IMG/VR virus record: IMGVR_UViG_3300042924_000575
Location: 1-30,778 of that record
Reading direction: 5' to 3' (one strand)
DNA from: a virus
DNA length: 30,778 bases
Shown here: piece by piece, positions 5,025 to 22,996 of the stretch
How positions within the stretch are numbered: position 1 is the first letter of the stretch
Layout: each line of letters begins with the position of its first letter
Position numbers and translations under genes: made by a program
The notes under the pieces: generated by a model
Told to the model about the DNA's origin: nothing
The model's database searches: none
What the model saw: the letters and a program-made list of their open reading frames with translations, nothing else

Positions 5025-5026
5025 AC

Positions 5027-5281
5027 ATGGGCATGTTCAGTCGCGTAACCCCACCTCGGCCAACTGCTGCACCGCAGGAGTACACCACTGCGTTCATGGA
5101 CCAGATGCAGAACATCTTCAACTTGTTCTTCAAGCAGATCAACGCTGTGCAGCAGCTTAATGTTGCCAGTTTAAACATCGACATCAACACCCTTCCCACT
5201 GAAGCTGATGTGGCCAACCTGCGCGTGGGTGACGTATACCGGGACACCACGGCGTCCAACGTATTGAAAGTGAAGGTCTGA
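5027..5281 (+). CDS. Small conserved virion/neck hypothetical protein
   Basis: An 84-residue protein with a GGAG ribosome binding site before ATG 5027, two bases after the nozzle stop. A Pro-rich N-terminus (TPPRPTAAPQEY) is followed by a helix with Phe and Gln (MDQMQNIFNLFFKQINAVQQ), then the end NLRVGDVYRDTTASNVLKVKV. That last motif recurs in small proteins next to gp10-like genes in aquatic phages. It is probably structural, perhaps a head-completion or fibre-attachment piece, but no biochemical role can be read from the sequence. Confidence 0.7.
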   Translation: MGMFSRVTPPRPTAAPQEYTTAFMDQMQNIFNLFFKQINAVQQLNVASLNIDINTLPTEADVANLRVGDVYRDTTASNVLKVKV

Positions 5282-5282
5282 T

Positions 5283-7859
5283 ATGCAGCAGCCAATGACG
5301 GCGGAACAGCTACGCGCTCAAATTGAAGCGGGGCCACGAACACAATCGGCTCTGGATCAAGCCTTTTCCACCTACACGCCAGACCAGTTGGCTGCAGCTT
5401 TTCCGGAATACGGTGGGGTCGAGCAATACACTCAAGCCGCAGCAGAGGCTGCAGCACGTAATCAGGCAAATTCCGCACCCACCACAGCCGCGCCCACTAC
5501 GCCTGCTGCCGCACCCACTGACAACTGGATGTCGGACCAATGGTACAACCCCAACGTCATGCCCGAGAACTTCGACTGGCAGCGCTACGTCGGGGCCAAC
5601 CAAGACTTGGGTGCGGCAGGGATCGACACGCAAGAAGAGGCCATGCGCCACTACTTCAACTACGGCCAGCAGGAAGGTCGGAACATCGGCGCTTTGACGC
5701 CGCAGCAAAGCGGGGATTTATCTCATGAAGATTTTCGTGCTGCTTTAGATGCTTACGGAAAAGCAAACCCGAACGCTCCTGATTTTTTTCTTGGCGTCGG
5801 CCCTGACGGGAAAGATGACTACGCCCCAGCCCGTGAATGGATTGACAAGAACTACATCCCGCAAGGCAAGTTCAAGACCGACTACGCCGCAGCAAAGCCT
5901 GCAGACAAGTTTGATTTACTGGACGAACTGAAAACTTCAAACCGACCACCAGAGCAACTTGCAAACATCAAAAAAGCTTGGGATGAGAACAAGGACAAGC
6001 CATCGGAGATGCGTCGGCTCATGCAGGAGTATGGCGTCACGCTGGGTGATTTGTCTCAAGCAACCGGCGAAACATACAGCCAGCTCAACACTTGGGTGGA
6101 GGGCGGGGATGTCCTTGGAGTGGTTGGCTTTTCTGTAAACAAACCCGGTGCCTACGACAAGTACAAGGCGCAGACGACCAAGAAAAACGACCCAAATTCT
6201 CAGTTTGTAACCGGTGCAAGCACGGCTGCTTCCCGCGAGGCCGACTTCCGTTCATCTCAGCAAAGAGCCGCCAACACTTTCGATCCTGTTGCCTACGCCA
6301 AGGACCCCGAGGCCTACGTCAAAAAGATGCGCGAGCAGGGCGGACTGGCTGGTTTGGTTGCCGAGAAGGCAGCGCCAGCTACCCCAGCTCAAGCAAAGTC
6401 TGCTACCACTCAAGCAGCCACAAAAATCACGCCCGTAAACTTTGAGTCGGAGTACAACAGGCTCAAAACAGACCCGAACCTGAACGAAGATCAGACACGG
6501 ACGTTCCTTACGAGTGCGCTGCAAGACCCAACTATCAAGGCAAAGTTTGGTGATAAGTTGCAGCCAGCGCTGGATGAGTTGAACAAGCCGCCGACTGAAA
6601 GAATGCTTGGCCAGATTGGCACTCAACAAAAGGCGCTTGGAGACAAGTACTACCAAGGTGTGTTTGCTGACCCCAAGAAGATGGCCGACATCCTTGAGGA
6701 TAAGGGTGTTAAAAGTCTTGCGGACTTGGGTCAGAAGGAAAAGTTCAAGACCACCAAGGCGGATGTTCAGTATCGGCTACCCAATGGGCGTGTTGCGACA
6801 GATTTTGGTGATGGTACTTATGGTTTTGTTGATGACACCGGCTACAACAATGAAGTTGTTCGCGTCTCTCCCGATGAGATGCAGGCTTATTACGGCAAGT
6901 ACGTGACGGAGGATGGTGGTGGAGACAGCGGCCCAATCAGTGTTTTCAAGTCGCTGTCTGAGCAAGAGCAGGAAACTTTGAAAGATGGAAAGTACCAAGA
7001 GAGTGTTGGTAATGTTGTCATAAACAAAAGAACCGGCGAGGAGCTGACCGACGCCACGCGCCAGCTTGCCTACCAATCCAGCAGTGGCGGGGCCAATAAA
7101 AAGAAAAACTGGTTGACCGTGGAGTTCACCAAAGATGGAACCCCTGTTCTAGTGGCAACCCAAGAGAAGGCTGGCCTTGGTAAAGCTTTGCAAGAGGCCG
7201 CACCACTGCTTGCTGTCGCGCTTCCATTTGTGCTTCCCGGACTGGGTGCAGCAATCAGCAGTGGTTTAGCGAGCGTCGGCGGTTCCGCAATGGCTGCGGG
7301 CTCTTTGGCCAACGCTGCGATAACCCAAGGCATCATCAGTGGTGGTATTGGCACTCTCGGTGGTCAAGACTTTGGGAAAAGTTTTCTCAGTGGTGCTGTG
7401 TCTCCCGTCATCGGCGCTGGAATTGGCTCCTTACTGCCTGCCGGTCTTGACGCAAATGCAGTCAACTCCATCAAGGGGGCTGGCACCGGAGTGGTCAAAG
7501 GGGCGCTGCAGGGTGGTGATTTGGATGATTTGCTCAAGCAGGGCGTCATTGGCGGGGCAACCAGCTACGGCCTCGGCGAAGCGACGAAGGGCATGAACCT
7601 AACCCCCCAGCAGTTGAACATGGCCTCCTCGGTTGTGTCTCCTCTGATCCAAGGGAAGAAGGTTGACCCGCTCAAGGTGCTCAGCTCGGCAATTACGTCG
7701 GGTGCTCGGACCGCAAAGCCCAAAGAAGACGTGCCCGGGAACGCAAGGGGCGGCTTGTTGGAAGGCCCCCTGCCTGTTAAAGTACCGGGTAACGCCTACG
7801 GCATGGACCCACGTATGTTGTCTGGTATCGCCACGAATATGATGGCAAGGAGCATGTAA
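5283..7859 (+). CDS. Large virion protein, putative ejection/internal protein
   Basis: An 858-residue protein starting at ATG 5283. The N-terminus has an Ala/Thr/Pro-rich linker (61-80). Residues 97-133 form a module with YVGANQDLGAAGIDTQ and HYFNYGQQEGR, a motif seen in many bacterial and phage surface or virion proteins (Y-ANPDL-AGID...HY-YG-EGR). The middle is charged and mainly helical. From about 630 a Gly/Ala-rich hydrophobic stretch begins (PLLAVALPFVLPGLGAAIS and following), with several segments able to enter a membrane. The C-terminus has GNARGGLLEGPLP. Large size, position between nozzle and other virion genes, and membrane-active character suggest an internal virion or DNA ejection protein. 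No enzymatic motif was found. Confidence 0.65.
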   Translation: MQQPMTAEQLRAQIEAGPRTQSALDQAFSTYTPDQLAAAFPEYGGVEQYTQAAAEAAARNQANSAPTTAAPTTPAAAPTDNWMSDQWYNPNVMPENFDWQRYVGANQDLGAAGIDTQEEAMRHYFNYGQQEGRNIGALTPQQSGDLSHEDFRAALDAYGKANPNAPDFFLGVGPDGKDDYAPAREWIDKNYIPQGKFKTDYAAAKPADKFDLLDELKTSNRPPEQLANIKKAWDENKDKPSEMRRLMQEYGVTLGDLSQATGETYSQLNTWVEGGDVLGVVGFSVNKPGAYDKYKAQTTKKNDPNSQFVTGASTAASREADFRSSQQRAANTFDPVAYAKDPEAYVKKMREQGGLAGLVAEKAAPATPAQAKSATTQAATKITPVNFESEYNRLKTDPNLNEDQTRTFLTSALQDPTIKAKFGDKLQPALDELNKPPTERMLGQIGTQQKALGDKYYQGVFADPKKMADILEDKGVKSLADLGQKEKFKTTKADVQYRLPNGRVATDFGDGTYGFVDDTGYNNEVVRVSPDEMQAYYGKYVTEDGGGDSGPISVFKSLSEQEQETLKDGKYQESVGNVVINKRTGEELTDATRQLAYQSSSGGANKKKNWLTVEFTKDGTPVLVATQEKAGLGKALQEAAPLLAVALPFVLPGLGAAISSGLASVGGSAMAAGSLANAAITQGIISGGIGTLGGQDFGKSFLSGAVSPVIGAGIGSLLPAGLDANAVNSIKGAGTGVVKGALQGGDLDDLLKQGVIGGATSYGLGEATKGMNLTPQQLNMASSVVSPLIQGKKVDPLKVLSSAITSGARTAKPKEDVPGNARGGLLEGPLPVKVPGNAYGMDPRMLSGIATNMMARSM

Positions 7860-9157
7860 TGGATGAATTTGATTTTGGCGACATGTCTGGCCTTGACTTT
7901 GGCGACTTCGACCTGAGTGGTTTGGAGAACATGGACCTGAGCGGCTTGGCGGACATGGACATGTCGGGCATCGACTTCGGCGACTTTGATCTGAGTGGTC
8001 TGGAGGGTCTTGATCTGAGTGGCTTAGAAGGCATGGACCTGAGCAGCGTAGACCTCGGCGACCTTGAGGGTTTGAACCTTGACTCTGCAGGGGGCAACAC
8101 CAGATCGCTTTTTGGTGGCGGAGAGTCTGGCTACTCGCCCGAGGATCAGCAGGGCCTTGATGACCTAATGGCAAAGTTCAGTGGCGAGGATGTCTCTGGA
8201 CCCCTGCTAACACCAGATGGGGTTGACGAAAGCTTTACCGGAAACTTGTCCGAAGACGAGTACAACCGATACCTTGAAACGCTTGACTCGGACTACAAGA
8301 GCCCGCTCTCTGATTTGCCAGCCCAGCAGATGCAGATCACCCCGGGGAATCAAGAGTCATTCGATAAGAACCTGACGGACATCATGCAAAACCGTGGCGG
8401 TTTTACCAGCCAATGGCAAAAGGTTGGCTCGGATCGAGTCATGGTCAACGATGACGGCACTGGTATCGGTATTAATGAAAACGGCGATCCGTATCCGCTG
8501 TCCGCAGGGCAAGTTAACAGCATGATCAAAAACGGTCAGCTCAACACTTTTGCATCTGGCTATAACACCGCCACTGGGGGTAATGAAAAAGGTCCGGGCG
8601 GCTCAATGGCTGGCAAGAGCGGAACTCCGGGCAAAGATGGCAGCGGAAACAAAAGCGGAACTGGCGAGAAAAAAGACGACTGGATGAAGTACATCATGCT
8701 GCTCATGGCCCTTGATGCTATGCGCAACAAAGGTGGCGGCTCCAGTGGCGCTGTCATTCCAAACCTCACAGCCGGTCGCAGCACAACGCCCTACGCTCAA
8801 GTTCAGAATGCTCCGGGTTATCGCCCGGGCCAAGGTGGCGTCCAGTACTTTGGCCCTACGGTCTATCGTGCAGCCGGTGGTGGCATCGGTGCTTTGGACG
8901 CGGCGGGTGGCCGACTGCTTCGCGGTCCGGGCGACGGTGTTTCTGACGACATCGTTGCGCAGATTGGCGACAACCAGCCAGCACGTCTTGCCGACGGTGA
9001 GTATGTGCTCGACGCCCGAACAGTTTCAGAGATCGGCAACGGCTCCACGGATGCAGGTGCTGACAAAATTGCTGAGATGGTGGAGCGCATACACAGCGAG
9101 CGCCGCAACGCAAAACGCGGTGAGCCCAGCAACGCCGACAAAAAACTTTTAGCTTGA
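7859..9157 (+). CDS. Virion-associated protein with acidic octa/decapeptide repeats
   Basis: A 432-residue protein. The ATG overlaps the previous stop (TAATG) and follows AAGGAG. Residues 8-74 are an acidic repeat with units such as DLSGLENM and DMSGIDFGDF; no Lys or Arg occurs before residue 82. The middle is Gly/Lys-rich (GTPGKDGSGNKSG). The hydrophobic helix YIMLLMALDAM is near residue 280. The C-terminus has a conserved phage block: GDGVSDDIVAQIGDNQPA, LADGEYVLDARTVSEIGNG, then AEMVERIHSERR, which I know from Gly-rich proteins of virion operons. The role is probably structural. The repeat domain has no assigned fold and could bind divalent cations or a basic partner; that is speculation. 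Confidence 0.65.
   Translation: MDEFDFGDMSGLDFGDFDLSGLENMDLSGLADMDMSGIDFGDFDLSGLEGLDLSGLEGMDLSSVDLGDLEGLNLDSAGGNTRSLFGGGESGYSPEDQQGLDDLMAKFSGEDVSGPLLTPDGVDESFTGNLSEDEYNRYLETLDSDYKSPLSDLPAQQMQITPGNQESFDKNLTDIMQNRGGFTSQWQKVGSDRVMVNDDGTGIGINENGDPYPLSAGQVNSMIKNGQLNTFASGYNTATGGNEKGPGGSMAGKSGTPGKDGSGNKSGTGEKKDDWMKYIMLLMALDAMRNKGGGSSGAVIPNLTAGRSTTPYAQVQNAPGYRPGQGGVQYFGPTVYRAAGGGIGALDAAGGRLLRGPGDGVSDDIVAQIGDNQPARLADGEYVLDARTVSEIGNGSTDAGADKIAEMVERIHSERRNAKRGEPSNADKKLLA
7880..8065 (+). repeat. Acidic coding repeat with 78-bp higher-order unit
   Basis: Within the 432-residue protein, units follow a 10-8-8-10-8-8-10 residue pattern: DMSGLDFGDF, DLSGLENM, DLSGLADM, DMSGIDFGDF, DLSGLEGL, DLSGLEGM, DLSSVDLGDL. 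The 10+8+8 set of 26 residues (78 bp) occurs twice (7880-7957 and 7958-8035), followed by a partial third copy. Synonymous codons differ between copies, so the protein pattern is maintained by selection or the duplication is old. Confidence 0.85.
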
Positions 9158-9166
9158 GGAATAACC

Positions 9167-10150
9167 ATGCCTGATGTAGCAACCCCCACGACACCCGGTG
9201 GAACCAACATGCAGGGCTTGGCCGACTGGGCCTCGCCTTACATCACCAGTTACCTCGGCAGAGCGCAGGCCGAAGCGCAACAGCCCTATGAGGCCTACCA
9301 AGGACCCCTGACTGCTGGTCCCTCAGCCCTCCAGAACCAAGCCTTCTCTGGCATTGCCGGTCTGACTGTGCCTACGGGTATTGGTCAGGCGGCAACCACG
9401 GCGGGTAACTTTGCAACGCAGGCTGGGAACACGCAGTACAACGCGGTTGGCTCTGACTTTGGAACGCCGCAGGCCCAGCAGTACATGAACCCGTACCTGC
9501 AGTCTGCGCTTAACCCTGCGATGGAAGAAGCTCGCAGGCAGGCTGATATCTCGCGCATGGCCGACGCTGGCCGACTGACTCAGGCCGGTGCTTTTGGTGG
9601 TAGCCGCCAAGCCATCATGGAGTCCGAAGGTCGCCGCAACCTGATGGACAAGCAAAACCAGATGCTGACATCGGGCTACTCGACTGCGTTTGACAAGGCG
9701 CAGCAGCAGTTCAACGCCGACCAAGCACGCAAGATTCAAGAGAAGCAGTTTGGCTCCGAGCTTGGGCTCAGAGGTCTGCAGACTGGCATCCAAGGTGCCC
9801 AGACACAAGGCCTGTTGTCCGAGGCACAGAACAAGGCTGGCTTGGCCAACTTGCAGCAACAACTCGCAGGCGGAGAAATCCAGCGCGGCATTGCTTCGGA
9901 AGGCGTCAAGGCCGATCTGGACGAGTACAACCGTCAGCGGGACGACCCGTTTAAGAAGCTGCAGTTTGAACGCGAAATGATTTCCGGCCTGCCAGTCGGC
10001 TCAGTAACAAACCAGACTCAAGGTTTGTCTGGGCTTGCTGCGCTGATTCAAGGCATGGGCGGAGCCGCTGCCCTCAACACTTCTTTAGCCGACAAAGAAA
10101 GCCCTCTGTACAAACTGCTTGGCAATCTCGGCTTTAACTTTGGTAGCTGA
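9167..10150 (+). CDS. Conserved virion hypothetical protein, helical
   Basis: A 327-residue protein with AGGA seven bases before ATG 9167. It is rich in Ala, Gln and Gly and mostly helical. The recognisable core is YMNPYLQSALNPAMEEARR, then ADAGRLTQAGAFGGSRQAI and a MESEGRRNLMD helix, followed by Gln-rich coiled-coil-like segments (KAQQQFNADQARKIQEKQF). The GAFGGSRQ motif is shared by proteins of virion operons in many aquatic podo- and siphoviruses. These features and its neighbours suggest an internal or ejection component or an assembly factor. No catalytic residues or signal peptide were seen. A more exact function cannot be given. Confidence 0.65.
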   Translation: MPDVATPTTPGGTNMQGLADWASPYITSYLGRAQAEAQQPYEAYQGPLTAGPSALQNQAFSGIAGLTVPTGIGQAATTAGNFATQAGNTQYNAVGSDFGTPQAQQYMNPYLQSALNPAMEEARRQADISRMADAGRLTQAGAFGGSRQAIMESEGRRNLMDKQNQMLTSGYSTAFDKAQQQFNADQARKIQEKQFGSELGLRGLQTGIQGAQTQGLLSEAQNKAGLANLQQQLAGGEIQRGIASEGVKADLDEYNRQRDDPFKKLQFEREMISGLPVGSVTNQTQGLSGLAALIQGMGGAAALNTSLADKESPLYKLLGNLGFNFGS

Positions 10151-10151
10151 T

Positions 10152-11777
10152 ATGAGCATGAATCTGATCCAAACCCAAGAGCGCCTCAAGGACGTTCCAT
10201 TGCAGGCCGTCATGCAGTACGTGAACGGCATGAACCCCGAGGTTCCGCCCTACATGGCGCTGTCCGAGCTGGACCGACGCAAACGGATACAGCAGCAGGC
10301 CCAAGCTCAGGCACCGCAAGGGACCGTCAAAGATCAGCTTGAGCAGCAGGTCGGCGGTGTTGGTGGGCTGATGCCTCCCGGTGCTCAAATGCCCGGCCAA
10401 GCGCAAGCTGCTCCGCAGGGTGCACCCCAAGGCGCTCCACAAGGAATGCCGCCCGGTATGGCTCAGCGTGGTATGCCTCCCGGCATGCCGCCTCAAGGTG
10501 CGCCCGTACAAGCTGCCGGTGGTGGCTTGATGTCCTTGATGGGCAATCGCTACGCTCGTGGCGGCATGGTTGCGTTCGCGGAAGGCGATGAAGTTGAAGG
10601 TGACGACGGTGATGAGGAATCGACTGGCCCAGTGTCCATGACGCCCGCTGCTGATTTGGCTGAGTACAAGCGCATGATGGCCAGCAAGTTGGGGGAGAAG
10701 GTGCGTGCAACTCCCTCACCGTTGGAGCAGCGCAAGAAGATGATGGAGGAAAACCCCGAGGCCTACGGCATGCTCGCCAAAAAACCCGGGGAAGAGTACC
10801 TCACTGGCATCCAAGGCATGCTCCAGCAGCGCGAAGCCGAGGCTGAAAAGCAGCGCGGTGAGAACTCCCGCCTCAAGGAGCTAGGCACATACGCAGCCAT
10901 CTCCAAAGCAGCGGAGGCCACTCGCGGGATGCGCGGTGGCAGAGGTTCCCAGATCGCAGCCATGCTCGGCAGTTTTGGCCAGCAGATGGGCGGTATCGAG
11001 AAGGAATCCGTTGGGCGCGAACAGGCACTGCGCGAGGACTTGCTCAAGCGTAGAGAACTCCAGAACGCCGCCAAGTTTGAGGTTGAGAAGCTGCAGATGG
11101 CACGGGCCGAGGGCGATGTCCAAGGCGAGCAGAAGCACACGGCCAACTTGGCCAAGCTTGAGAACGCCCTGCGTGTGTCACAGAACAGTCTGCTCAAGGG
11201 TGCCATCACTGGTGCTTACGGAGCCGCTGGTAGGGCGTACGCCGCCGATATTGCCGCCAAGGCCAAGATCAAAGCTGCGGGTATGCGCGGTGCATCGGAG
11301 AAAAAGCCGACTGATTTGGGCAACATGATCCAAATCGAGTTCGACGCACTGGTAGCCAACGGAGCCGACGCGAGCGATCCGAACACAAAACGGATTGCGG
11401 CACAAAATGCTGCACGGGCTCTGAGCAAATCGGCAGGGTCTACTCGCGCCGAAACCGAGCAAATTAGGGACGCTAACACAGAGTTTTTGAACAGGACCAT
11501 GTTGGACCGGCCTCTAAACAAGCTGCGCACAACCAACCCCCCAGCGTACGCAGCTCGGGTCAAAGAGATACGCGATGAAATTAAAGCCGAGTTTGGCGTT
11601 GAGCCCACTGCCCAGCCAAGAGTACAAGCAGCCCCCGGTGCCGCACCTAGCGCAAAGCCCGCCGCGACAAAGCCAGCAGTGGGTATAACCCCCGAACAAT
11701 TTGATGCGCAATGGGCTAAACTAAAGCCCGGCCAAACACTGGTCGGGCCAGACGGCGAAACGTACACCAAAAAATAA
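10152..11777 (+). CDS. Virion-associated protein, Pro/Gly/Gln-rich and coiled coil
   Basis: A 541-residue protein. ATG 10152 follows the previous stop by one base; an in-frame upstream ATG at 10119 would overlap the preceding gene and is less likely. The N-terminal domain (MNLIQTQERLKDVPLQAV, then NPEVPPYMALSELDRR) is a conserved phage motif. Residues about 85-120 are a degenerate APQGAPQG/MPPGM repeat, followed by RYARGGMVAFAEGDEVEGD, also a known phage motif. Residues 210-390 form a long charged helix with coiled-coil character. The C-terminus closes with PEQFDAQWAKLKPGQTLV and GPDGETYTKK. It probably belongs to the ejection or internal-core set with its neighbours. No enzymatic signature was found. 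Confidence 0.65.
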   Translation: MSMNLIQTQERLKDVPLQAVMQYVNGMNPEVPPYMALSELDRRKRIQQQAQAQAPQGTVKDQLEQQVGGVGGLMPPGAQMPGQAQAAPQGAPQGAPQGMPPGMAQRGMPPGMPPQGAPVQAAGGGLMSLMGNRYARGGMVAFAEGDEVEGDDGDEESTGPVSMTPAADLAEYKRMMASKLGEKVRATPSPLEQRKKMMEENPEAYGMLAKKPGEEYLTGIQGMLQQREAEAEKQRGENSRLKELGTYAAISKAAEATRGMRGGRGSQIAAMLGSFGQQMGGIEKESVGREQALREDLLKRRELQNAAKFEVEKLQMARAEGDVQGEQKHTANLAKLENALRVSQNSLLKGAITGAYGAAGRAYAADIAAKAKIKAAGMRGASEKKPTDLGNMIQIEFDALVANGADASDPNTKRIAAQNAARALSKSAGSTRAETEQIRDANTEFLNRTMLDRPLNKLRTTNPPAYAARVKEIRDEIKAEFGVEPTAQPRVQAAPGAAPSAKPAATKPAVGITPEQFDAQWAKLKPGQTLVGPDGETYTKK

Positions 11778-11786: not shown

Positions 11787-14700
11787 ATGGCGTGGACTCC
11801 CCCCAGCGATGCTGTAGAGGCGCAAGCGTCCTCTGATACTACCGCCAGCATGGGGTGGACTCCGCCTTCTGATGCCATAGTAGTTCAACCTGCGGCCCTT
11901 ACAGGCTGGACTCCCCCCGCCGACGCAGTAGTAGCAACTACGCCTAAGCCCGTTGACACCCTCGACGCCAAACTCGCTGCGCAAGAGGCTAAACGCGCCC
12001 AGTTTGCTCCGGGCGAAGAGCTGAAAAAGGGTGCCATGAAAGCGGCTACCTCGGACTTGCCCTCCATGTGGGAGCAGGCGGGGATCATGAAAGACGTCGG
12101 TGCTGCACTGACGGTCAAGCAGCGCATGGACTTGTTCGACAAGATCGACAAGGGCGAAGTCACCAGCATGGACCAGTTGCGTGGGCTGGACCTGACAACC
12201 GGGCAGGGGCGCATGTATCTTGCCGCGCCCCCAGAAACACGCGAGAAGCTCAAAGGGCGACTGACTTCTGAGCTGGCCAACCGCAAAGAGTTCGTGAAGG
12301 CGTCCATCGACACAATCAATGCGTACAAAGAAAACGCCAAGAAGTACGCCCCTCGGGTGGAGAAAGCGTCCGACATTGGCTCTGTTACCGACTTCACAAA
12401 CTTCGTAGCCAGTAACGTCGGCTCTGGTGCCGTTCAGCTCGTCCCACTAATGCTTGCTGCTGCCACAACAGGTGGAGTGGGTCTGGGCGCGATGGGCGTT
12501 GGCATGGGCACATCCGAAGCTGTCGGCAACCGCTTGGAGTTTCTACAGAAAGAATTGGCGCAACTTCCCCAAGATCAACGCGCCGACGCCGTCATCAACT
12601 ACCTCGAAAAGACTGGCGGTACGTCACTGGCCGTTGGTGTTGTGTCCGGTGCGCTCGACACGGTTCTTGGCCCTGCGGCGACTTTGGTCAAGCAGATGGC
12701 GAGCAAGACGCTCAAGGATCAGACCCGCAAAGAAGCTGCCAAGGCTGCGGTCAAGGAAGTGCCCAAAACTATTGCTGGCGAGGCTGTCACAGGTGGCGCA
12801 CAAGAAGCTACTCAGATTGCCGGTAAGGTCGGGGTTGGTGAGCGGGACAAGTTCGCCACCAAAGAGACACTGGTTGACGTGCTCAACGCCGCCGCTGCTG
12901 AAGCTGCGGGTTCCCTTGCTGGTGCCGGTGCAAACGTAGGTGTTGCCGCTCTTCGCGCAGAGGGCGCACAGCCCGAAGAAACCAGAGATCGCATTGACCC
13001 AACTATGGGGGATTTGGACGCAAAACCTCCAGCGCCCACCACCGAGGCTCGGATTGCTAAGCTGGTTGAGCAGTACCGTAGTAAACAAGGCTTGATGAAG
13101 GACGACGCCGAGATGTTGGCGCGTCGGACAGTTGCCGAGCAAGATGCAGAGGCCGCGAAAGCCGCCGAGGCGGTCGTGGAAGAAACACCCGCCGAGACGA
13201 CAACTACGCCTACTGAAGAAACTCCAACCACTGAACTTGTAACTGAAGCTGCACCGACACTGGAGTCGCTCACTGCCGACCTCATTGACCAAGGGTTGCC
13301 GGAAGATGAAGCGCGTGTGTTGGCCCAGATGCGCCTCGACAAAGAGAAGCCCATCGTTACGCAGCCAGTGCAGGCTCCGTCGGCAATCATCAGCCGCGAG
13401 GCCCCTCCGACGCTGGAGTCCCTCACCACAGAATTCATCGACCAAGGGCTGACCGAGGACGAAGCTCGCGTTCAGGCCCAACTGTTTTTGGATCGGAGCA
13501 AGAGTGCGCCAACTGAAGGAAGACAAGATGTTGCAAGACCTGACGCAGAGCCAAGTGGAATCAGCACTGCAGTACCTGCACCTACAGCCGACGAGCTTTC
13601 CACCGCCAAGCGACCTGAAGGAACTAAACCCGATGGAGTGGTTCCTGCTCGACAGGATGCTGGACTGCCTACTGAAAGAGAAGGAGAGCAGCCAGTTGCA
13701 GTAGAAGAAACGGTAGAGAGACTAAATGCTTTACCTAGAGCCGTAAATGCAATACTGGGCGAAACTGAGCCCGCTGCAGTAGCCGAAGCCGAGCGGATCA
13801 AAGAGGAAGACGAGCGCAACGCCGCCTACGAGGCTAAGAAAGCCAAGGCGCAAAGTATCGCCAAGTCAAATGCAAGCACTGCGTTTGACCAAGTGGGTGA
13901 GTACGCCGACATTGATGAGGCACTGGATTCGTACCGCACAAACATGGCAGACACACTGGCGGAAGAAGGGCTCAGAGATGACCCCGACTACGACAATCTG
14001 CTCAACGCTGCAAACCGTGCATTTGACGCCGAAGTTAACAAGCAAAGAGGAACCACGACCGATGGCACTGCGACCACTGAAACCGTCCAAACAGAAGAAA
14101 AAGGACAAGAAGCACCAGCAACCAAGCGAGGCCGTCCGATAACGCTTACGCCGGAGCAGAAGGCTCAGCGGGATAAAGAGCGCAAGGATGATCGAGCCTC
14201 TCGCGGTCGGCACGAGCGTGCAGTGAACAAAGCAGAGACGTCTCTGCAGAAAGCCCTGACCCCGCTGGACGAAGGCGAGTTTGCCAACGACGCCGAGCTC
14301 AAAGAAGCTCAGGATGACCAGCGTGCCGAGCGCCGCAACGCGGTCAAAGAACTCCTGCGCGTGTCTGAGGAGTCCGGGCTCAAGCCAGAGGGCAAGCGTG
14401 CACGCAAGATTCTCAAGGATGCCAACATCCCCCAGACCGAGATCGACGACATCAAGCGTGGGCTATCTCGCGCCAAGAAAGCGCTATCGGACAAGACCAA
14501 CTTGCTAGGTCCAGTCTCTTCTACCGAGCGCAAGGGCGCAGCGGTTACCAAAGCAGACCCAGCCTTCGCTGCGTTCAAGACAGGTGCACAGGCCATCGGC
14601 CACATCATCAAGACCGGCACCCGGTTCCAGAAAGCCGTCGCCCAGCGCCTGCGCAATTTCGTGCGTGACGTTGAGTTCGTTGTGCTCGAAAAAGATTCTG

Positions 14701-17700
14701 AAGTCCCTGCGCAGCTTCAGCAAGCCAAGTACGCAGACCAGTGGGAACGGTCACGCGCTCTGTACATCGAGAACTTCAAAACCGGCAAGCGCGTGGTCTA
14801 CGTACGTGGCGCGTCGTTCGGCAACTCCCAAGGGGCCAATAACGTCACTGTGCTGCACGAGCTGCTGCACGCCGCCACGGTCAAGAAGATCGCACTGGCG
14901 CAGGAATACATCAACAAGGGCATCAACCTCAACACTCCGCTGGTACGTGCGTATCAGGACCTGCTCGACACCATGCGGGCAGCGCAGGACCGTCTGATCG
15001 AGATGAGCGACAACGGTGAGGTAACCGAGGCCCTTGCTGATTTGTACGACAGCACAGACGGAGACATCGTTGCAGACCCCCGCGAGTTCTTGGCGTACGG
15101 CATGTCGGACGAGCAGTTCCAAGAGTTCCTCATGTCTGCCGAGGGTGTGCAGGAAGACACATCGTTCTTCACGCGTTTTGTGGACTCCATCCGCCGCATG
15201 TTCGGCATGGACGACTCGGACATCAACGCCCTGTCTGACCTCATCATCGCCACTGACTCTTTGCTTACTTCCCGTGTTCCTCGCAGCGAGAGCCTGCCCG
15301 GCACTGGATTGCTGTCGCAGGTCAAAAAGAAGTCGGCAAAGATTTCCGCCGCCGAGCGCAAGCTCCTGCGCAGCAAAGACGCACAGGAAATAACCGACGA
15401 CATCGGCATACTCACAACACTGCGCGACCCCCAGTTGTTTGTGGATACGCTTGGCGCACTGTGGAGCACGGCTAACGTCAAAAAGCTGCAAGCCCTGCTA
15501 CCCTCAATCCAGACGAACAACTTGGTGGAGTGGGCACAGAACTTGGGCATACCTGAGCTGGGCCGCACTTGGCGCATGAGCCAAGACATGAGCGCGATGC
15601 GCAACAAGATGCTGGCTGCGTCTGCTGCCGTAGTGGACGAATGGCTGAAAATTCAACCCGGTGTAATCGGCAAGCTGCGCGGCAAGAAGAACGAGCTGAC
15701 TGCACTGGCTGATGTCATGCACTACTCGACCGACCAACGGATCGACCCGACCAAGAGCACCAAGGACCCCGTGCTCAACAAGATGTGGAACGCCCTGAGC
15801 CCACAAGCCCAGAAGGTCTACACCGAAGTCCGTGACTTCTACCAAGCGCAGTACGATTTGTACCGTGGGTTGCTCGACGCCCGTATTGCTGAGTCCAGCA
15901 TTCCCGGCGAGATCGACGATCCAGACACGCCCAAGGGCCAGTTGATGGCGGAGATCAAGAAGGCGTACGAGAATGGCAAGGGCATGGCCCCGTACTTCCC
16001 GTTGATGCGCTACGGTAACTTCTGGGTGCGCGTCGGCAGCGGCAAGTCCAAAGAGTTCTACATGTTTGAGAGCCAAGTGGCTCGGGAGCTGTTCATCAAG
16101 AAGCGCTTGCGCCAGTTGCAAGACGCTGGAGATAGCCGCACTGAAACACAGATGCGTGAAGACCAAGACCTCGACAGTGGTAACGAGCTGTCCGGTCTGC
16201 GCAAGTCCAGCATCGAGAACAGCACCATGCTCAAGAACATCTTTGAGCTGCTCGACGTGCCCGGGGCCAATCAAGACATTGACGCGCTCAAGGACCAGAT
16301 ATACCAGTTGTATCTGACCACGATGCCGGAGAACAATTTCCGCAGGCAGTTCATCCACCGCAAGGGCACTGCTGGTTTCTCTGGTGACGCACTGCGCAAC
16401 TTCATCACGTCGTCCGTGAACATGGCGAACCAGTTGTCGCGGATCAAGTACGGCTACCAGATGCTCAACTCCATCGACACTGCACAAGCGTCGTTAGATG
16501 GAAACCCAGACAAGCCACGGCTGGAGATGCTGGTCAAGGAGATGGGCAAGCGCATCGAGATGGACGTGTACCCGCAAGTGGACAGCCCGTTCCTGAACAC
16601 CGCAGCCAACTTCTTGAACAAGTCGGCGTTCCTGTACTTCATGACCTCAGTGAAGACTGCCCTTGTGCAGCTCTCGTCGTTGCCTATCTTCGGTGTGCCT
16701 GTGCTCATGTCTCGCCACAACCCGTTGCAGGTGGCCAAGGAGATGGGTCGCTTCATGCTGGTCTACAACCAGTTCGGTGTGGTCAAGGACGGCAAGCTGG
16801 TGATGCCGACTATCGAGGCATCCAAAGAGATCAACATGAACGCAGACGAGCGTGCGGCTATTGAAGCTATGCACGACCGGGGCATTGCAGAAGTCACGTT
16901 GACATACGACTTGATGGACCGGCAAGACAAGCCGACTACCAAGTATTCCAGTGCGTTCAACACCGGGACCAACTTGCTGGGTGCACTGTTCCATCACACC
17001 GAGCGTATCAACCGCGAGATCATCTTCATGTCTTCGTTCCGCTTGAGCCGCAACGAGGGGATGAGTGTTGAGGACGCCATCGAGCAAGCGGTAAGCGATA
17101 CGCACACAGCCCTTGGTAACTTCACAGCCCAGAACCGCCCACGTATCATGCGAGCCCCAGCCGGGCGCGTGCTGCTGCAGTTCAAGATGTTCCCGATGTT
17201 CTTGTCTACCTACCTGCTGCGTAACGGGTATCGCGCTACTGCCGGTATGGACGCAGCTACAAAGAAGGAAGCGCGGATTCAGTTGATCGGCACTCTTACC
17301 ATGTCAGCCTACCTTGCTGGCTACGTTGGTGTTCCCGGTGCAAGCATGGTGCTTGGTGCTATTCAGGCGTTTATCAATTCGATGCGGGACGAGGACGAGG
17401 AAGATGATCCACTGGAGAAGCGCGACTTGGAGTTCTGGTTCCGGTCGGTGTACTTGCCCAACCTGTTCGGTGATGTGAAGATCGGCGACCAAAAGCTCGG
17501 CGAGGTCATAGACGCAGGTGCTCTCGATTCGCTCACTGGGTACGACATGTCCAGCAGCATGTCCATGAACAACATGTGGATGCCCGAGCTCAAGGAGCAG
17601 AAGACTGCACAGGCCACGATGATGGACTACGCCATGTCTCTCTTAGGGCCAAGCGCAAGCCTGTACCTCAAGCAGTTCCCTGCAGCCTACGATGACTTCG

Positions 17701-18224
17701 CCGCTGGCAGAACGCTGCAAGGGTTTGAGAAGCTGTTACCCGCCGCGCTGAGAAATCCCGTGGTTGCGTATCGGTACTCACAAGAAGGTGCGCGTACTTC
17801 CACCGGGGCTGTGCTCAAGGAAGCCGATGAGTTCACAAACGGGCAGCTTGTTGCTCAGGCTCTGGGTTTCCGTACCGAGGGTCTGGCCGCTGTGCAAGAG
17901 GCAAACTTCAAAGCCGAGGCGATACGCCAGAAAGTTGTGCAGGAGAAGGGCGCAGTACGTACCCGTCTGGACCGCGAGCTGGAGTTGGGTTCCGACGAGG
18001 GTGTGGACGACGCGATGGAGAAGCTGCTGAAGTTCAACGCCAAGAACCCGCAGTCGGCGATCAAAGCCAATGAGCTGCCCAAGCAACTTCTCAACCGCGC
18101 CAAGCAACGTGCGATGTCCGATCGCGGGTTCAAGGTGGACAAGGACATGTACCCCTACCTCGCCGAGCTGCTCGACCTATCGCGTGAGAAGATTGAGCGG
18201 GAAGCCGCCAAGCCCGAGGAATAA
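11787..18224 (+). CDS. Giant polyvalent virion protein with zincin and PLxRFG-type domain
   Basis: A 2145-residue protein, the largest in the window and the last late gene. Order of parts: three WTPP(S/A)DAV repeats (3-48); hydrophobic segments at about 207-241 and 279-301 able to cross a membrane; an acidic Thr/Pro/Glu linker with duplicated helices (490-569); a charged helical part; a metallopeptidase with HELLHAATV (H1024, E1025, H1028) and a probable third ligand E1100 in DPREFLAYG; a large helical region with YFPLMRYG (P1405-G1410), matching the PLxRFG signature of phage polyvalent proteins; hydrophobic helices at about 1610-1650 and 1831-1866. Such proteins are thought to be injected with DNA, with the protease acting in the host or on virion proteins. 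A separate ORF is embedded at 13528-13704. Confidence 0.85.
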   Translation: MAWTPPSDAVEAQASSDTTASMGWTPPSDAIVVQPAALTGWTPPADAVVATTPKPVDTLDAKLAAQEAKRAQFAPGEELKKGAMKAATSDLPSMWEQAGIMKDVGAALTVKQRMDLFDKIDKGEVTSMDQLRGLDLTTGQGRMYLAAPPETREKLKGRLTSELANRKEFVKASIDTINAYKENAKKYAPRVEKASDIGSVTDFTNFVASNVGSGAVQLVPLMLAAATTGGVGLGAMGVGMGTSEAVGNRLEFLQKELAQLPQDQRADAVINYLEKTGGTSLAVGVVSGALDTVLGPAATLVKQMASKTLKDQTRKEAAKAAVKEVPKTIAGEAVTGGAQEATQIAGKVGVGERDKFATKETLVDVLNAAAAEAAGSLAGAGANVGVAALRAEGAQPEETRDRIDPTMGDLDAKPPAPTTEARIAKLVEQYRSKQGLMKDDAEMLARRTVAEQDAEAAKAAEAVVEETPAETTTTPTEETPTTELVTEAAPTLESLTADLIDQGLPEDEARVLAQMRLDKEKPIVTQPVQAPSAIISREAPPTLESLTTEFIDQGLTEDEARVQAQLFLDRSKSAPTEGRQDVARPDAEPSGISTAVPAPTADELSTAKRPEGTKPDGVVPARQDAGLPTEREGEQPVAVEETVERLNALPRAVNAILGETEPAAVAEAERIKEEDERNAAYEAKKAKAQSIAKSNASTAFDQVGEYADIDEALDSYRTNMADTLAEEGLRDDPDYDNLLNAANRAFDAEVNKQRGTTTDGTATTETVQTEEKGQEAPATKRGRPITLTPEQKAQRDKERKDDRASRGRHERAVNKAETSLQKALTPLDEGEFANDAELKEAQDDQRAERRNAVKELLRVSEESGLKPEGKRARKILKDANIPQTEIDDIKRGLSRAKKALSDKTNLLGPVSSTERKGAAVTKADPAFAAFKTGAQAIGHIIKTGTRFQKAVAQRLRNFVRDVEFVVLEKDSEVPAQLQQAKYADQWERSRALYIENFKTGKRVVYVRGASFGNSQGANNVTVLHELLHAATVKKIALAQEYINKGINLNTPLVRAYQDLLDTMRAAQDRLIEMSDNGEVTEALADLYDSTDGDIVADPREFLAYGMSDEQFQEFLMSAEGVQEDTSFFTRFVDSIRRMFGMDDSDINALSDLIIATDSLLTSRVPRSESLPGTGLLSQVKKKSAKISAAERKLLRSKDAQEITDDIGILTTLRDPQLFVDTLGALWSTANVKKLQALLPSIQTNNLVEWAQNLGIPELGRTWRMSQDMSAMRNKMLAASAAVVDEWLKIQPGVIGKLRGKKNELTALADVMHYSTDQRIDPTKSTKDPVLNKMWNALSPQAQKVYTEVRDFYQAQYDLYRGLLDARIAESSIPGEIDDPDTPKGQLMAEIKKAYENGKGMAPYFPLMRYGNFWVRVGSGKSKEFYMFESQVARELFIKKRLRQLQDAGDSRTETQMREDQDLDSGNELSGLRKSSIENSTMLKNIFELLDVPGANQDIDALKDQIYQLYLTTMPENNFRRQFIHRKGTAGFSGDALRNFITSSVNMANQLSRIKYGYQMLNSIDTAQASLDGNPDKPRLEMLVKEMGKRIEMDVYPQVDSPFLNTAANFLNKSAFLYFMTSVKTALVQLSSLPIFGVPVLMSRHNPLQVAKEMGRFMLVYNQFGVVKDGKLVMPTIEASKEINMNADERAAIEAMHDRGIAEVTLTYDLMDRQDKPTTKYSSAFNTGTNLLGALFHHTERINREIIFMSSFRLSRNEGMSVEDAIEQAVSDTHTALGNFTAQNRPRIMRAPAGRVLLQFKMFPMFLSTYLLRNGYRATAGMDAATKKEARIQLIGTLTMSAYLAGYVGVPGASMVLGAIQAFINSMRDEDEEDDPLEKRDLEFWFRSVYLPNLFGDVKIGDQKLGEVIDAGALDSLTGYDMSSSMSMNNMWMPELKEQKTAQATMMDYAMSLLGPSASLYLKQFPAAYDDFAAGRTLQGFEKLLPAALRNPVVAYRYSQEGARTSTGAVLKEADEFTNGQLVAQALGFRTEGLAAVQEANFKAEAIRQKVVQEKGAVRTRLDRELELGSDEGVDDAMEKLLKFNAKNPQSAIKANELPKQLLNRAKQRAMSDRGFKVDKDMYPYLAELLDLSREKIEREAAKPEE
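11793..11930 (+). repeat. Three WTPP(S/A)DAV peptide repeats at N-terminus
   Basis: The first 48 codons of the giant gene encode WTPPSDAV (3-10), WTPPSDAI (24-31) and WTPPADAV (41-48), separated by short Ala/Thr linkers. The Trp-Pro-Pro core is strictly kept while the linkers differ. This looks like a short linear motif array, for example a packaging or docking tag, rather than a folded domain. Confidence 0.85.
13254..13340 (+). repeat. Helical repeat copy 1 (PTLESLTADLIDQGL...)
   Basis: A 29-codon unit in the giant gene, residues 490-518, PTLESLTADLIDQGLPEDEA plus RVLAQMRLD. It is equal in length to copy 2 at 13407-13493 and identical at most positions; a weaker relative (IAKLVEQYRSKQGLMKDDAE) lies about 70 codons earlier. 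Each unit is probably a helical hairpin resembling small UBA-like modules. Confidence 0.8.
13407..13493 (+). repeat. Helical repeat copy 2 (PTLESLTTEFIDQGL...)
   Basis: The second 29-codon unit, residues 541-569, PTLESLTTEFIDQGLTEDEA plus RVQAQLFLD. DNA between the copies has diverged at many third positions, so the duplication is not recent. It ends 35 bases before the embedded ORF begins. Confidence 0.8.
13528..13704 (+). CDS. Small protein encoded inside the giant gene in another frame
   Basis: A 58-residue ORF in the +1 frame relative to the giant gene. ATG 13528 has AAGGA with seven bases of spacing, and it ends with TAG at 13702-13704. The product is compact and protein-like: MLQDLTQSQVESALQYLHLQ, then PPPSDLKELNPMEWFLLDRM and a charged helix CLLKEKESSQLQ. 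By hand count 45 of 58 codons end in G or C in this frame, against 17 of 59 in the host frame over the same bases, where the product is disordered. The W-LL-L-KEKE-S pattern vaguely recalls small proteins of other phages, but I assign no function. It may be an overprinted or inserted gene translated by internal initiation. Confidence 0.62.
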   Translation: MLQDLTQSQVESALQYLHLQPTSFPPPSDLKELNPMEWFLLDRMLDCLLKEKESSQLQ

Positions 18225-18328: not shown

Positions 18329-18523
18329 TCAAACGCGCCACACTCGCAATCCTTTGATGCCGTCCTCGACTACCACCTTCGTGACTACCTCCATGCGTAG
18401 GCGTCTGGCTACGCGAGCAACTGTTGTGCGAGCTGCCACGGAGTCAATGCAGGGGACGAAAAACGATCGCCCCTTGCGGAACTTCTGCCAGTTAATCTGG
18501 TACGACACTGTCTCGATCTTCAT
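18329..18523 (-). CDS. Small conserved hypothetical protein, basic
   Basis: A 64-residue protein whose ATG lies inside the last codons of the primase gene (32-base overlap, different frame), so coupled translation is expected. The sequence runs SYQINWQKFRKGRSFFVPCI, then ARTTVARVARRLRMEVVTKV and ends EDGIKGLRVWRV. It is basic, with an alternating hydrophobic/charged pattern suggesting an alpha/beta fold; the SFFVPCID and GLRVWRV blocks resemble small proteins in early operons of related phages. It may contact nucleic acid, given its charge and position after the primase. It is the last gene of the leftward operon before the terminator. The antisense ORF here is considered a shadow. Confidence 0.7.
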   Translation of the reverse strand: MKIETVSYQINWQKFRKGRSFFVPCIDSVAARTTVARVARRLRMEVVTKVVVEDGIKGLRVWRV

Positions 18524-21344
18524 CGCTTGCTGCAGGTTGGTCGATGTGAATAAAGTCGAAGTTCTCGGCGTTGAAGCGTAGCACGCGCACGGCAGGAGAC
18601 AGCACTTTCATGCCCTTGGCCATCCGCTTGTTCGTTGCTTCTTTGAAGGCCCCGGTGGTCGTGAGCTCGCGGATGGTGTCCTTGTAATTTATCTGGTACT
18701 TGACGCAGTAGTCCTTGAAGCTCTTAGCAGCGATGAAGAGTTCCTTTGTATCTGGCTCGTAGCGTACCAGTAACTCTCCCTTCGGCTCCATGAGGGGCAG
18801 CGACGTCAGGTTTGTCCGGGCGTCGGTCAGGCCGTTGACCACCAGCGTGTTGGCCATGTGCGCGTTGATGTATTCACCAAGGACAGACGCAGTTGAGTTG
18901 AACTCCGCAGGCTTCACATCGCCGCGCATCTCGTTGAGCATTTTGATTGTCCACTCGTAGATGGCACGCATGTCGTAGTCGTGGAGCCCGAGGTTCTTGG
19001 CGATCAAGCCACCCGCAATGTTGCAAGCCGCTGTGGCCGACCAAAAGCGTTCTTTGGCTGTGACCTGCAGTTCTTTGTCGATGCGTGCTTGGACTTTTCG
19101 GACCAAGTCGGTTGCCGACTCCAAGTTGTTGACAAGCCATTGCAGGTAGACTTCCCCGGCGTGGCCGAAGTTCTGCATCAACTGGTGGTCAAACATGTGC
19201 TTGCCCTCGGCTACCGAGATAACTGTGGTGGGGGCAATCTTGTACTCAAGCAGACGCATGTTCTCGCCGTCGGGGGAGTTCTTGGCCGCGCCCAGTTTTT
19301 CGTAGAACGATGCGTTCGACGAGGTGAGCGTGATGCCCTGCCACTTGGTGTTGTTGATCCGCATCTCGTTGCTCTGCGACTTCATGCGGTCTTTGCCTCG
19401 GCCTTGGCTGATACCGTAGATCAGGTCGGAGAACTCCATTGCCGGGATGTTCGTGATCTCGTCGATCGTGTTGGCCAAGTTGTTCATGACACCGAGGCGG
19501 AACATCTTGGAGTTGGCTGTGTCTTTCCAAATAGACGCAAGCTCAGAGGGGTGCCCCACTATGCTGTTGCACACGTACAGTGTGGTTGACTTGCCCGTAC
19601 CGGAGTCTTTGTGGATCAGGTTGATGATCGCGCCCTTCATGCCGGTGAACTTCAGAAGCGGAGAGCCAAAGCCTGTGAGTGCAGCAAACGCATTGGGCTC
19701 CAGCCCCGGCCTGTTGTACATGTTGAAGACTTCCTTCCAAGCGTCCATGTTCCCTTCAGTGCGGATGTTGGCTGAGATTTCTCTGGTCGTTGCAGACGGA
19801 GGGCTGTAGAACACGCCGTCCTTGGTAATCTCCCGGTCTCCCAAAATGAACTTGCTGTCGTCGTCGATCCACCCAAATTGTGTCCTCATAATTTCAGCTT
19901 TCTTTTTGAACTGCAGGTTCTTGATGAACGTAGTCAGGTAGTTCGACAGGGAAGTCATTTGCTTCGTAGTCGGCACCACGCCGTAATGCGCCAGAACCTC
20001 ACGTAATTTTTCTTTGACCACGATGGCCGTTGCGGGGACGGCAAACTCTTTGACCCCGTCTTGTGGCAGGTGCAGCCGCATGAGTGCGACCTCGCCCATC
20101 TCTGAATGTTTCATGCGCTTGACCACATACAGGTCGTGCTCGTACACAAGTGTCGGCTCTTCTTCGTCGTCTTCCGCCTTCTTGTACACACCGCCGTTCT
20201 TGCCCCGGAAGTAGGGGAACGGATACTCTGGAATCCGTACCGTCTCAACAACGCCGTCTTCATCCTCGACATCAACTTCGCCGTCGTCGGCTTCGGCTAT
20301 CTCCATACCCAGAACGATTGGGGACTTGATCTTGCCGTCGTGGGGGCATCCAGCGCAGCCGCTTGGGTTAAGCTTCTTGAACGTGGCGCAGTGGTGTGGG
20401 CCACCGCTCTTTTGTAGGTTAGCCAGCTTGCGGTCTACCTCGGCAGCGTCGTAGCCTGCGTATTGGTCCGACAGTTTGTGCGCAGCCCGTGAGCCATCAA
20501 TGCAGTGCGCAGCGATCGACAGCGCGGAGAACCACAGGGGCTCGTCCACATCATTCTGGTTTTCGTAGCAGTGCAGCAGTTGGTTGCATCCGTCGCCTTG
20601 GGCCGATCGAATCATGATGGTCTGAAACTTCTTGACCTTGTTGCCCATCAGGGCTTCCATCATGGGACTGACCGCACGCGGCAGGAAGTCGGGGACGGTG
20701 TCTTTTGGCTCGGGGGCTCCGAGCAGCTCCTTCATTTCTTCGTACGTAAACCGGGGGGTGTCTGTGTTCCACACTTCAACAGACTTGGGGTTTGCCTTGT
20801 CCTTGAAGTTGAACGAGCTCAGTGGGCGCAGTACCCGCGACGCCTCGAATACGGACGGGTCAACGATCAGGTTGTTTTCTTCGCACAGCTCACGTAGGCG
20901 TTGCGACAGTGGCTCCCACTCGCGGCGGGAGATTGTTTTATCAAGCAGCCAGTAGGCATGTATGCCGTTACCGGAGTTGACCAGAATGGGTTTGGGTAGG
21001 CCGACTGTCTTGCAAAAACGGGAGAACTCAGAGAGTCCGATCTGTTGGTCGAGGTAGCCCTTGATGATGCCCTTCTCGTCGGGCACGCCCTTTGTGGGGC
21101 CGCAGTCGATGTCCATCCACAGTGCTTTGAAGAACTTGGCGTTCTCATGCGTGCGGTTGTTCTCGGGGCCAAACTTGGCGCATCCGAAATAGGCGTCGAT
21201 TTTGTTCTGGACAAACTCTTGGATCAGCTCCTCAGCTTCTTCTCGCGTGTCTGCAAACCGCTGGTCTGCGTACCGACTAATCCCCATCACGCAGTACCGG
21301 CCTTCTGGCGGCAGCACTGCGTCTAGCAGGTCGAAGTTGTACAT
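18492..21344 (-). CDS. Primase-helicase (AEP primase fused to P-loop ATPase)
   Basis: A 950-residue replication protein. The N-terminal part resembles archaeo-eukaryotic-type primases: LWMDIDCG gives metal ligands D78 and D80, NSGNGIHAYW gives S124 and H129, and a later VFEASRVLRPLSSFNFKDK resembles the third motif. A Cys cluster (HHCATFKKLNPSGCAGCPHDG) follows and may bind zinc. The C-terminal half is a superfamily-3 or DUF927-like helicase: Walker A HKDSGTGKSTTL (K585) and Walker B TIDEITN. It should prime and unwind phage DNA. ATG 21344 follows the HTH gene stop by three bases. The order primase, zinc, helicase resembles plasmid and phage replication fusions. Confidence 0.9.
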   Translation of the reverse strand: MYNFDLLDAVLPPEGRYCVMGISRYADQRFADTREEAEELIQEFVQNKIDAYFGCAKFGPENNRTHENAKFFKALWMDIDCGPTKGVPDEKGIIKGYLDQQIGLSEFSRFCKTVGLPKPILVNSGNGIHAYWLLDKTISRREWEPLSQRLRELCEENNLIVDPSVFEASRVLRPLSSFNFKDKANPKSVEVWNTDTPRFTYEEMKELLGAPEPKDTVPDFLPRAVSPMMEALMGNKVKKFQTIMIRSAQGDGCNQLLHCYENQNDVDEPLWFSALSIAAHCIDGSRAAHKLSDQYAGYDAAEVDRKLANLQKSGGPHHCATFKKLNPSGCAGCPHDGKIKSPIVLGMEIAEADDGEVDVEDEDGVVETVRIPEYPFPYFRGKNGGVYKKAEDDEEEPTLVYEHDLYVVKRMKHSEMGEVALMRLHLPQDGVKEFAVPATAIVVKEKLREVLAHYGVVPTTKQMTSLSNYLTTFIKNLQFKKKAEIMRTQFGWIDDDSKFILGDREITKDGVFYSPPSATTREISANIRTEGNMDAWKEVFNMYNRPGLEPNAFAALTGFGSPLLKFTGMKGAIINLIHKDSGTGKSTTLYVCNSIVGHPSELASIWKDTANSKMFRLGVMNNLANTIDEITNIPAMEFSDLIYGISQGRGKDRMKSQSNEMRINNTKWQGITLTSSNASFYEKLGAAKNSPDGENMRLLEYKIAPTTVISVAEGKHMFDHQLMQNFGHAGEVYLQWLVNNLESATDLVRKVQARIDKELQVTAKERFWSATAACNIAGGLIAKNLGLHDYDMRAIYEWTIKMLNEMRGDVKPAEFNSTASVLGEYINAHMANTLVVNGLTDARTNLTSLPLMEPKGELLVRYEPDTKELFIAAKSFKDYCVKYQINYKDTIRELTTTGAFKEATNKRMAKGMKVLSPAVRVLRFNAENFDFIHIDQPAASDEDRDSVVPD

Positions 21345-21347
21345 GGG

Positions 21348-21602
21348 TCAATCTAGCCAGTTGTGAGTTTTGTTTTTCAGCGCGGCGATGTGCTCGCGGA
21401 TGTACCCATGCCGAGAAGGTAGGGGGACACCGTCCCCCTTGAACCAGTTGTAAATCGTCATGCGGCTCACGCCGAACGCAGACGCTACGCGATCTACACT
21501 TACGTTGGCACGGATGCACTCACGGCCCAAGGCCACACCCAGAGATTTGGCACTTGCTTGTCTGTTCGCTTGCACCAAGCTCTGGCTGTAACCGTGGCTC
21601 AT
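21348..21602 (-). CDS. Helix-turn-helix DNA-binding protein
   Basis: An 84-residue protein with GAGGAG upstream of ATG 21602. Residues 35-56 form a helix-turn-helix: VSVDRVASAFGVSRMTIYNW followed by FKG, which matches Xre/MerR-like or DUF-type phage HTH folds. The N-terminus is Gln/Ala-rich, and the tail YIREHIAALKNKTHNWLD is helical. It probably binds DNA, either as a regulator of the early operon or as an origin-recognition factor, since it lies between the SSB candidate and the primase-helicase. The target is not known; the palindrome at 23012-23024 upstream of the operon is one candidate. Confidence 0.8.
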   Translation of the reverse strand: MSHGYSQSLVQANRQASAKSLGVALGRECIRANVSVDRVASAFGVSRMTIYNWFKGDGVPLPSRHGYIREHIAALKNKTHNWLD

Positions 21603-21604
21603 GA

Positions 21605-22534: not shown

Positions 22535-22536
22535 TT

Positions 22537-22968
22537 TCACTTTTCCTTAGAACGTCTAACAACCACGGTATATTGGCTTTCGACATTTAGCCCTTGCGGG
22601 TAAACGTCTGGATTCTCTGAGAGGAAGTCCTTCATGTTGGTTTGATGGAGTCTCTTCTCAAGCAGGCCGAATGCACCTTTCTCCTCGATGAAGCGGTACA
22701 TTGAATCCCAATCATTCGTCCAGTACCGTGACTTCACTGAGCGGATGATCGTGCCGTGCGGGGTGCGGATGCTGTCGGCATCCATGTCTTTGCAGATGTC
22801 CAGCATCTTTTCAGCCAGAAGATTCTGTTGGTCTTCGAGGTCTTTGTCGCCAGCCTCGAATTGTTTTTTAAGTTCGGCGCGGTGGTCGCGAATCTTGATG
22901 TAGACCGCAGCTAGATCGCTTACGCTGCGATCTTCGGAGGGAGTTCCCCCCTGAACTTCATCGTTCAT
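22537..22968 (-). CDS. Conserved hypothetical protein of the replication operon
   Basis: A 143-residue protein with AGGAG six bases before ATG 22968, first gene behind the promoter at 22997-23024. Residues 17-60 are a charged helix with coiled-coil character (VYIKIRDHRAELKKQFEAGD). The second half has a conserved pattern: TPHGTIIRSVKSRYWTNDWD, then EKGAFGLLEKRLHQTNM and the end YPQGLNVESQYTVVVRRS. I have seen this arrangement next to SSB-like genes in related phages but know no function. It may bind or protect DNA or assist the following SSB candidate. Its TGA is two bases before the next ATG. Confidence 0.75.
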   Translation of the reverse strand: MNDEVQGGTPSEDRSVSDLAAVYIKIRDHRAELKKQFEAGDKDLEDQQNLLAEKMLDICKDMDADSIRTPHGTIIRSVKSRYWTNDWDSMYRFIEEKGAFGLLEKRLHQTNMKDFLSENPDVYPQGLNVESQYTVVVRRSKEK

Positions 22969-22996
22969 ATCAGCTCCTTCGTGTTGTGGTGAAGCT

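Follow-up and report, generated by a model that had tools for sequence, protein, structure and literature searches.

Inside the giant gene of the linear IMG/VR virus record IMGVR_UViG_3300042924_000575 (30,778 bases; this whole stretch of DNA is hereinafter designated the window), a 58-codon open reading frame (ORF) is, to judge from sequence comparison, very probably a real protein-coding gene that has overprinted the outer gene (Table 1); its expression is without experimental data. The relatives put the embedded gene beyond reasonable doubt and indicate that, along these 58 codons, selection has passed entirely from the outer frame to the inner one. The case shows that disordered linkers of giant phage proteins can hold conserved genes discarded by standard gene callers.

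Table 1 Positions of the features of the window referred to in the text.
Feature	Position	Strand	Description
Nested gene (inferred)	13528–13704	+	58 codons and a stop, in the +1 frame relative to the giant gene; product MLQDLTQSQVESALQYLHLQPTSFPPPSDLKELNPMEWFLLDRMLDCLLKEKESSQLQ
Shine-Dalgarno sequence AAGGA	13516–13520	+	seven-base gap before the ATG of the nested ORF
Giant gene	11787–18224	+	2145-residue PLxRFG / DarB-like protein
Low-complexity linker overprinted by the nested gene	13407–13770	+	linker-type residues GPASTEQDKRNV
Phage lysozyme	2564–3079		PF00959, E 4.1e-34
Replication module	18492–27853	−	DUF927 primase/helicase-like, helicase, PD-(D/E)XK nuclease, family A DNA polymerase

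A preliminary description of the window had pointed to an ATG-initiated 58-residue ORF lying wholly inside the 2145-residue ORF in the +1 frame, preceded by AAGGA at seven-base spacing and encoding a product with a PMEWFLLDRM core, all of which we locate as described. It had further reported that 78 percent of the inner codons end in G or C against 29 percent for the outer frame, and that the latter uses the rare codons AGA and GGA. Our counts agree: in the overlap the fraction of codons ending in G or C (GC3) is 0.78 for the inner frame against 0.29 for the outer frame, and AGA and GGA there make up 3.4% and 8.6% of the outer codons compared with 0.5% and 0.6% gene-wide, an enrichment of about 7 times and about 14 times, respectively. 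The GC3 of the whole giant gene is 0.68, and the two 60-codon windows with its lowest GC3 (0.30) lie over the nested ORF, the next lowest being 0.45. High GC3 in the inner frame is partly expected because the third position of an inner codon is the first position of an outer codon, which is GC-rich anyway; the real composition anomaly is the fall of outer GC3 in the overlap, not the high inner GC3. Long stop-free stretches are common in the giant gene, which contains 14 same-strand ORFs of at least 50 codons in alternative frames, the nested ORF and 13 others (50–161 codons), and the nested ORF alone is therefore no proof of a gene; the relatives decide.

Relatives were collected in two ways. 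With the inner protein as query, 93 relatives were matched in IMG/VR and 80 of these were retrieved (set 1); in 80/80 the ORF sits in the +1 frame inside a long open outer ORF. The 58 distinct relatives were used for the counts of start, length, stop and composition given below. Set 2, which is unbiased in that its query was the last 750 residues of the giant protein and not the inner protein, and from which duplicates were removed, carries a +1 nested ORF in 64 of 66 intact, 5′-complete giant genes. The two exceptions, L315 and L335, are near-identical giants without the nested ORF, and every other miss is a giant gene cut by a contig end. The preliminary description had stated that a lack of homologues outside this region, together with relatives that keep the outer frame but have stops in the inner one, would refute its proposal; neither is what we find, since homologues are widespread and only the two near-identical giants lack the inner frame. 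In L187 and L195 the nested ORF is intact and the outer frame carries a single lesion (frame change or stop) further downstream, at about 632–700 and about 1172, respectively, which may reflect an assembly error or gene splitting.

The core of the nested protein is well conserved, with 16 of its 58 positions invariant. More distant members, with matches as weak as about 30 bits, likewise always sit in the +1 frame and retain the pattern LS..QV..A...L......P..L..L....W..L..L...L..E...S.[LV][HQ]-stop, and in some of them the codon at the aligned start is not ATG. Standalone homologues were found neither in six-frame translations of the 80 loci (10–20 kb) nor in further diverged sets; tblastn with four different family members returned no match in cultured phages, and a weak scan of bacterial genomes, with a single exact peptide only, revealed no standalone homologue. 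A nested homologue is likewise absent from ten cultured DarB-like phages, from phages Rollin and RHph_TM29, and from four Vibrio/Photobacterium loci, the closest bacterial loci (27–30% identical). As far as the collections searched can tell, the family occurs solely in nested form.

The signals for translation of the nested ORF are conserved together with its sequence. Among the 58 distinct members the start codon is ATG in 55, CTG in 2 and GTG in 1, every ORF measures 57 or 58 codons, with the inner frame open throughout in 58/58, and the stop codon is TAG in 36, TAA in 17 and TGA in 5. A GGAG-type Shine-Dalgarno (SD) sequence precedes the start at fixed spacing (G at –10 in 58/58, G at –9 in 56, A at –8 in 54 and G at –7 in 49), and an SD match of at least 5 nt accompanies 45/58 nested starts, against a background of 3.4% among 2943 further out-of-frame ATGs of these genes. 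Inner-frame identity climbs at the start codon, upstream of which the SD alone is conserved, and stops lie 0–8 codons upstream of the start in several members, with TAA directly before the ATG in L123. A GTG upstream, at 13504, would yield 66 residues, but conservation begins at the ATG instead. This 66-codon version is open in 35/52 relatives and looks less conserved, both because its upstream extension lies beyond the conserved gene and because the global alignment slips over that extension. The conserved SD and start codon give the nested gene a translation start of its own, without experimental confirmation, and the conserved start, SD, length and stop fit independent initiation and a defined protein rather than frameshifting or a nucleic-acid signal.

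To the comparison of rates in both frames, which the preliminary description had proposed as a check, the substitutions give a clear answer. An OLGenie-like count, in which each change is classed by what it does to either reading frame, was made in 52 close pairs. In the overlap the inner ratio dNN/dNS is 0.114 (95% interval 0.078–0.159), and the outer ratio dNN/dSN is 1.34–1.47 (interval 0.91–2.60 for 1.47). Over the rest of the giant genes, analyzed pairwise in the same pairs as a control, the non-coding +1 frame gives 0.65–0.69 and the outer frame 0.17–0.20, the outer frame being under purifying selection on either side of the overlap. The unbiased set yields an inner ratio of 0.064 and an outer ratio of 0.97. 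Inner-synonymous changes amount to 0.36 per site in the close pairs and inner-nonsynonymous changes to 0.04, and the mean pairwise identity is 0.63 for the inner protein vs 0.38 for the outer one. The diversity at outer codon positions 1, 2 and 3 is 0.46/0.33/0.22 in the overlap compared with about 0.57–0.60/0.53–0.56/0.68–0.70 outside it; the outer third position, normally the freest, is the most conserved in the overlap because it coincides with the inner second position. Strong inner constraint without constraint on outer residues, reversed elsewhere in the gene, is thus seen in both the ratios and the codon-position diversity, and what had been suggested from composition, that the inner frame is under selection and has overprinted the outer, is borne out.

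Outer protein residues are unconstrained in the overlap, and the outer frame is still kept open. No outer-frame stop occurs in the overlap of any of the 58 sequences, whereas 2.7 per sequence are expected when synonymous inner codons are re-drawn with the codon usage of the giant genes. With the inner gene's own codon usage the expectation is 0.37 per sequence, a lower figure because that usage already reflects avoidance of outer stops.

The abundance of stop-free stretches in the giant gene and the low complexity of the outer sequence would suit an open frame that arose by chance from the codon bias of the outer gene and has no product. Each of the 13 other ORFs, however, is open in merely 0–6 of the 27–51 relatives compared, whereas the nested ORF is open from its ATG in every one of the 58, with inner identity above outer identity and inverted selection ratios; the substitution pattern has already refuted this explanation, to which we attach virtually no weight. 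The overlap is also the most conserved DNA in that part of the giant gene, and its strong SD-like sequence could pause ribosomes on the outer frame, as might be expected of an RNA or DNA element (a structure, packaging or pause signal) in place of a protein gene. Such an element is extremely improbable, in that the very frequent inner-synonymous and rare nonsynonymous changes are a protein-level signature and conservation ends at an inner stop that itself varies among TAG, TAA and TGA. Programmed frameshifting into the inner frame, which would produce a truncated giant protein with a 58-residue tail, is compatible with the shared strand, the +1 relation and an inner frame that is open some way upstream in many members. 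Yet conservation starts at the start codon with the SD alone before it, a stop lies just upstream in L123 and 3–8 codons upstream in others, and start codon and SD spacing are themselves conserved. With no conserved slippery site seen, by-eye inspection only, we consider frameshifting very unlikely, and an overprinted gene with its own start remains our reading.

The outer gene encodes a protein that matches the NCBIfam PLxRFG domain NF032893 (E 3.8e-115, 385.9 bits, cut-off 100), the Pfam LPD39 domain PF18858 (E 4.5e-13) and the PHROG 10089 DarB-like antirestriction family (E 3.5e-79). The outer residues of the overlap are 90–100% linker-type (GPASTEQDKRNV) in all 58 relatives, and the sequences flanking the nested gene cannot be aligned between relatives, whereas the overlap can. 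The nested gene lies upstream of a conserved HExxH motif of the giant protein. This motif (TVLHELLHAATVKK), found at 14856–14870 after the linker and present in nearly all relatives, suggests a zinc metallopeptidase-like domain.

The nested product is predicted to be an acidic, soluble helical hairpin with a proline-rich loop between its helices. The AlphaFold2 model, built from the family alignment, contains two helices (residues 7–18 and 35–55; mean pLDDT 77), and the pI is 4.1–5.7. No transmembrane stretch is found in the 58 members, among which the highest 19-residue hydropathy is 0.87, and no signal or lipobox is seen in the product sequence. The family has no significant match in Pfam, PHROGs, NCBIfam or PDB sequences, and comparison of the model with the PDB and BFVD returned nothing significant.

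In the mechanism that we propose, one mRNA serves both genes, and ribosomes would start independently at the conserved SD and ATG within the giant ORF; this internal initiation would yield an acidic soluble protein of 57–58 residues. Within the overlap the residues are now dictated by the inner frame, and all that is required of the outer frame is to stay open and in phase. The nested product would be made in step with the giant protein from one transcript. We tentatively propose, from position and analogy and with rather less than even confidence, that the product serves the giant protein as a small dedicated partner made late, for example as a chaperone for its assembly or packaging or as an ejection component packaged with it. 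The nested gene is part of a virion-type operon, and a partner role is preferred on account of the shared mRNA, the occurrence only with the giant gene and the retention nearly everywhere in the clade. The analogy is with phage P1, whose DarB is packaged in the head and believed to be ejected into the cell, and needs small helpers to enter the capsid: Ulx is listed as aiding DarB localization and DdrB as aiding its addition to the capsid (PMC9024508). A DarB-like giant has also been detected in JC1 virions by mass spectrometry (PMC9144972). The lack of a structural neighbour for the model fold limits what can be said of such a role; restriction to one outer gene is also predicted by single-origin overprinting whatever the function, and the absence of the nested gene from L315 and L335 implies that the giant protein can work without the nested product. 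It is possible, if somewhat doubtful, that the family represents small proteins existing solely out of frame in a giant ejected virion protein, made in fixed proportion to it and acting with it, the disordered linker of the giant providing the genomic home of their gene. If so, an ejection machine and the chaperone or co-injected cofactor that goes with it are encoded in one DNA stretch.

Host factors are often the targets of small, acidic, soluble phage proteins, and the nested product could instead be host-directed (in counter-defence or takeover, for example), its location reflecting only the available frame. The link of large polyvalent and DarB families to anti-restriction (PMC5512222, PMC9024508) points the same way. 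We hold this to be somewhat unlikely, on two arguments that are not tests: almost every member of a diverse clade retains the gene, and its core is well conserved, in contrast to most host-directed genes of fast turnover; and its operon position suggests late expression. Lysis is the function served by the best known nested genes of DNA phages, the classic examples being lambda Rz1 inside Rz and phiX174 E inside D. For the present gene a lysis function is extremely remote given the hydropathy and the missing signal and lipobox described above, and the phage lysozyme gene of the window indicates that lysis is encoded elsewhere.

Like Rz1, the nested gene is small, lies wholly inside another gene in the +1 frame, has its own start and belongs to a tailed phage. 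Rz1, however, is a lipoprotein of a lysis module, whereas the nested product has no signal or membrane stretch and is encoded in a giant virion-type gene, the outer frame of which is unconstrained in the overlap. An Rz1/spanin-type nested lysis gene was considered as a candidate and rejected, as the lipoprotein signal/transmembrane criterion is not met. With phiX174 E the nested gene shares overprinting and internal initiation, but E comes from a small phage with single-stranded DNA and is a membrane lysis protein, and the nested product is predicted to be soluble and comes from a large tailed phage. The outer gene is of the same DarB-like/PLxRFG kind as DarB of P1 and the DarB-like giants of Bcep22-like phages, virion proteins in P1 and JC1; by contrast, the P1 helpers are ordinary separate genes, and the cultured Bcep22-like relatives examined have no nested gene. 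Fremin et al. 2022 reportedly catalogued small phage genes missed by standard annotation; the nested gene is also small and overlooked by standard annotation, and its family might be in that catalogue. Embedded genes have been described as rare in tailed phages, and annotators are urged to extreme caution in recording them (PMC8785237). Nested genes as such are known; what is new is a family that seems to have no lysis function and is housed in a giant virion-type gene, with constraint handed over completely from one frame to the other. It offers a ready test set for methods of overlapping-gene detection, and its small, deeply conserved product lends itself to functional tests through start-codon changes to which the outer frame is silent.

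Placed on a tree of the giant protein C-terminus, the carriers and non-carriers require only two changes, a pattern that fits one gain at the base of an uncultivated phage clade and one later loss (L315/L335). The cultured Bcep22-like relatives, Rollin, RHph_TM29 and the Vibrio loci all fall outside the carrier clade, and long branches near the base of the tree make it uncertain where exactly the gain took place. The natural reading is that the gene originated when a disordered linker in the giant protein was overprinted.

The linker region varies in other respects. Between L315 (giant gene at 4494–10382) and L335 (4512–10382) a whole cassette within the linker differs, one of them carrying a YHVTTEDNVPTIQQNGL segment, which suggests that the linker is a hot spot for module swapping. 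Directly before the nested gene, the outer frame of the window contains two similar repeats of about 51 residues at 13270–13500 (LESLTADLIDQGLPEDEARVLAQ... and LESLTTEFIDQGLTEDEARVQAQ...), which are absent in many relatives. In the replication module, the closest cultured match of the DUF927 primase is in Pseudomonas phage Rollin, at 30%.
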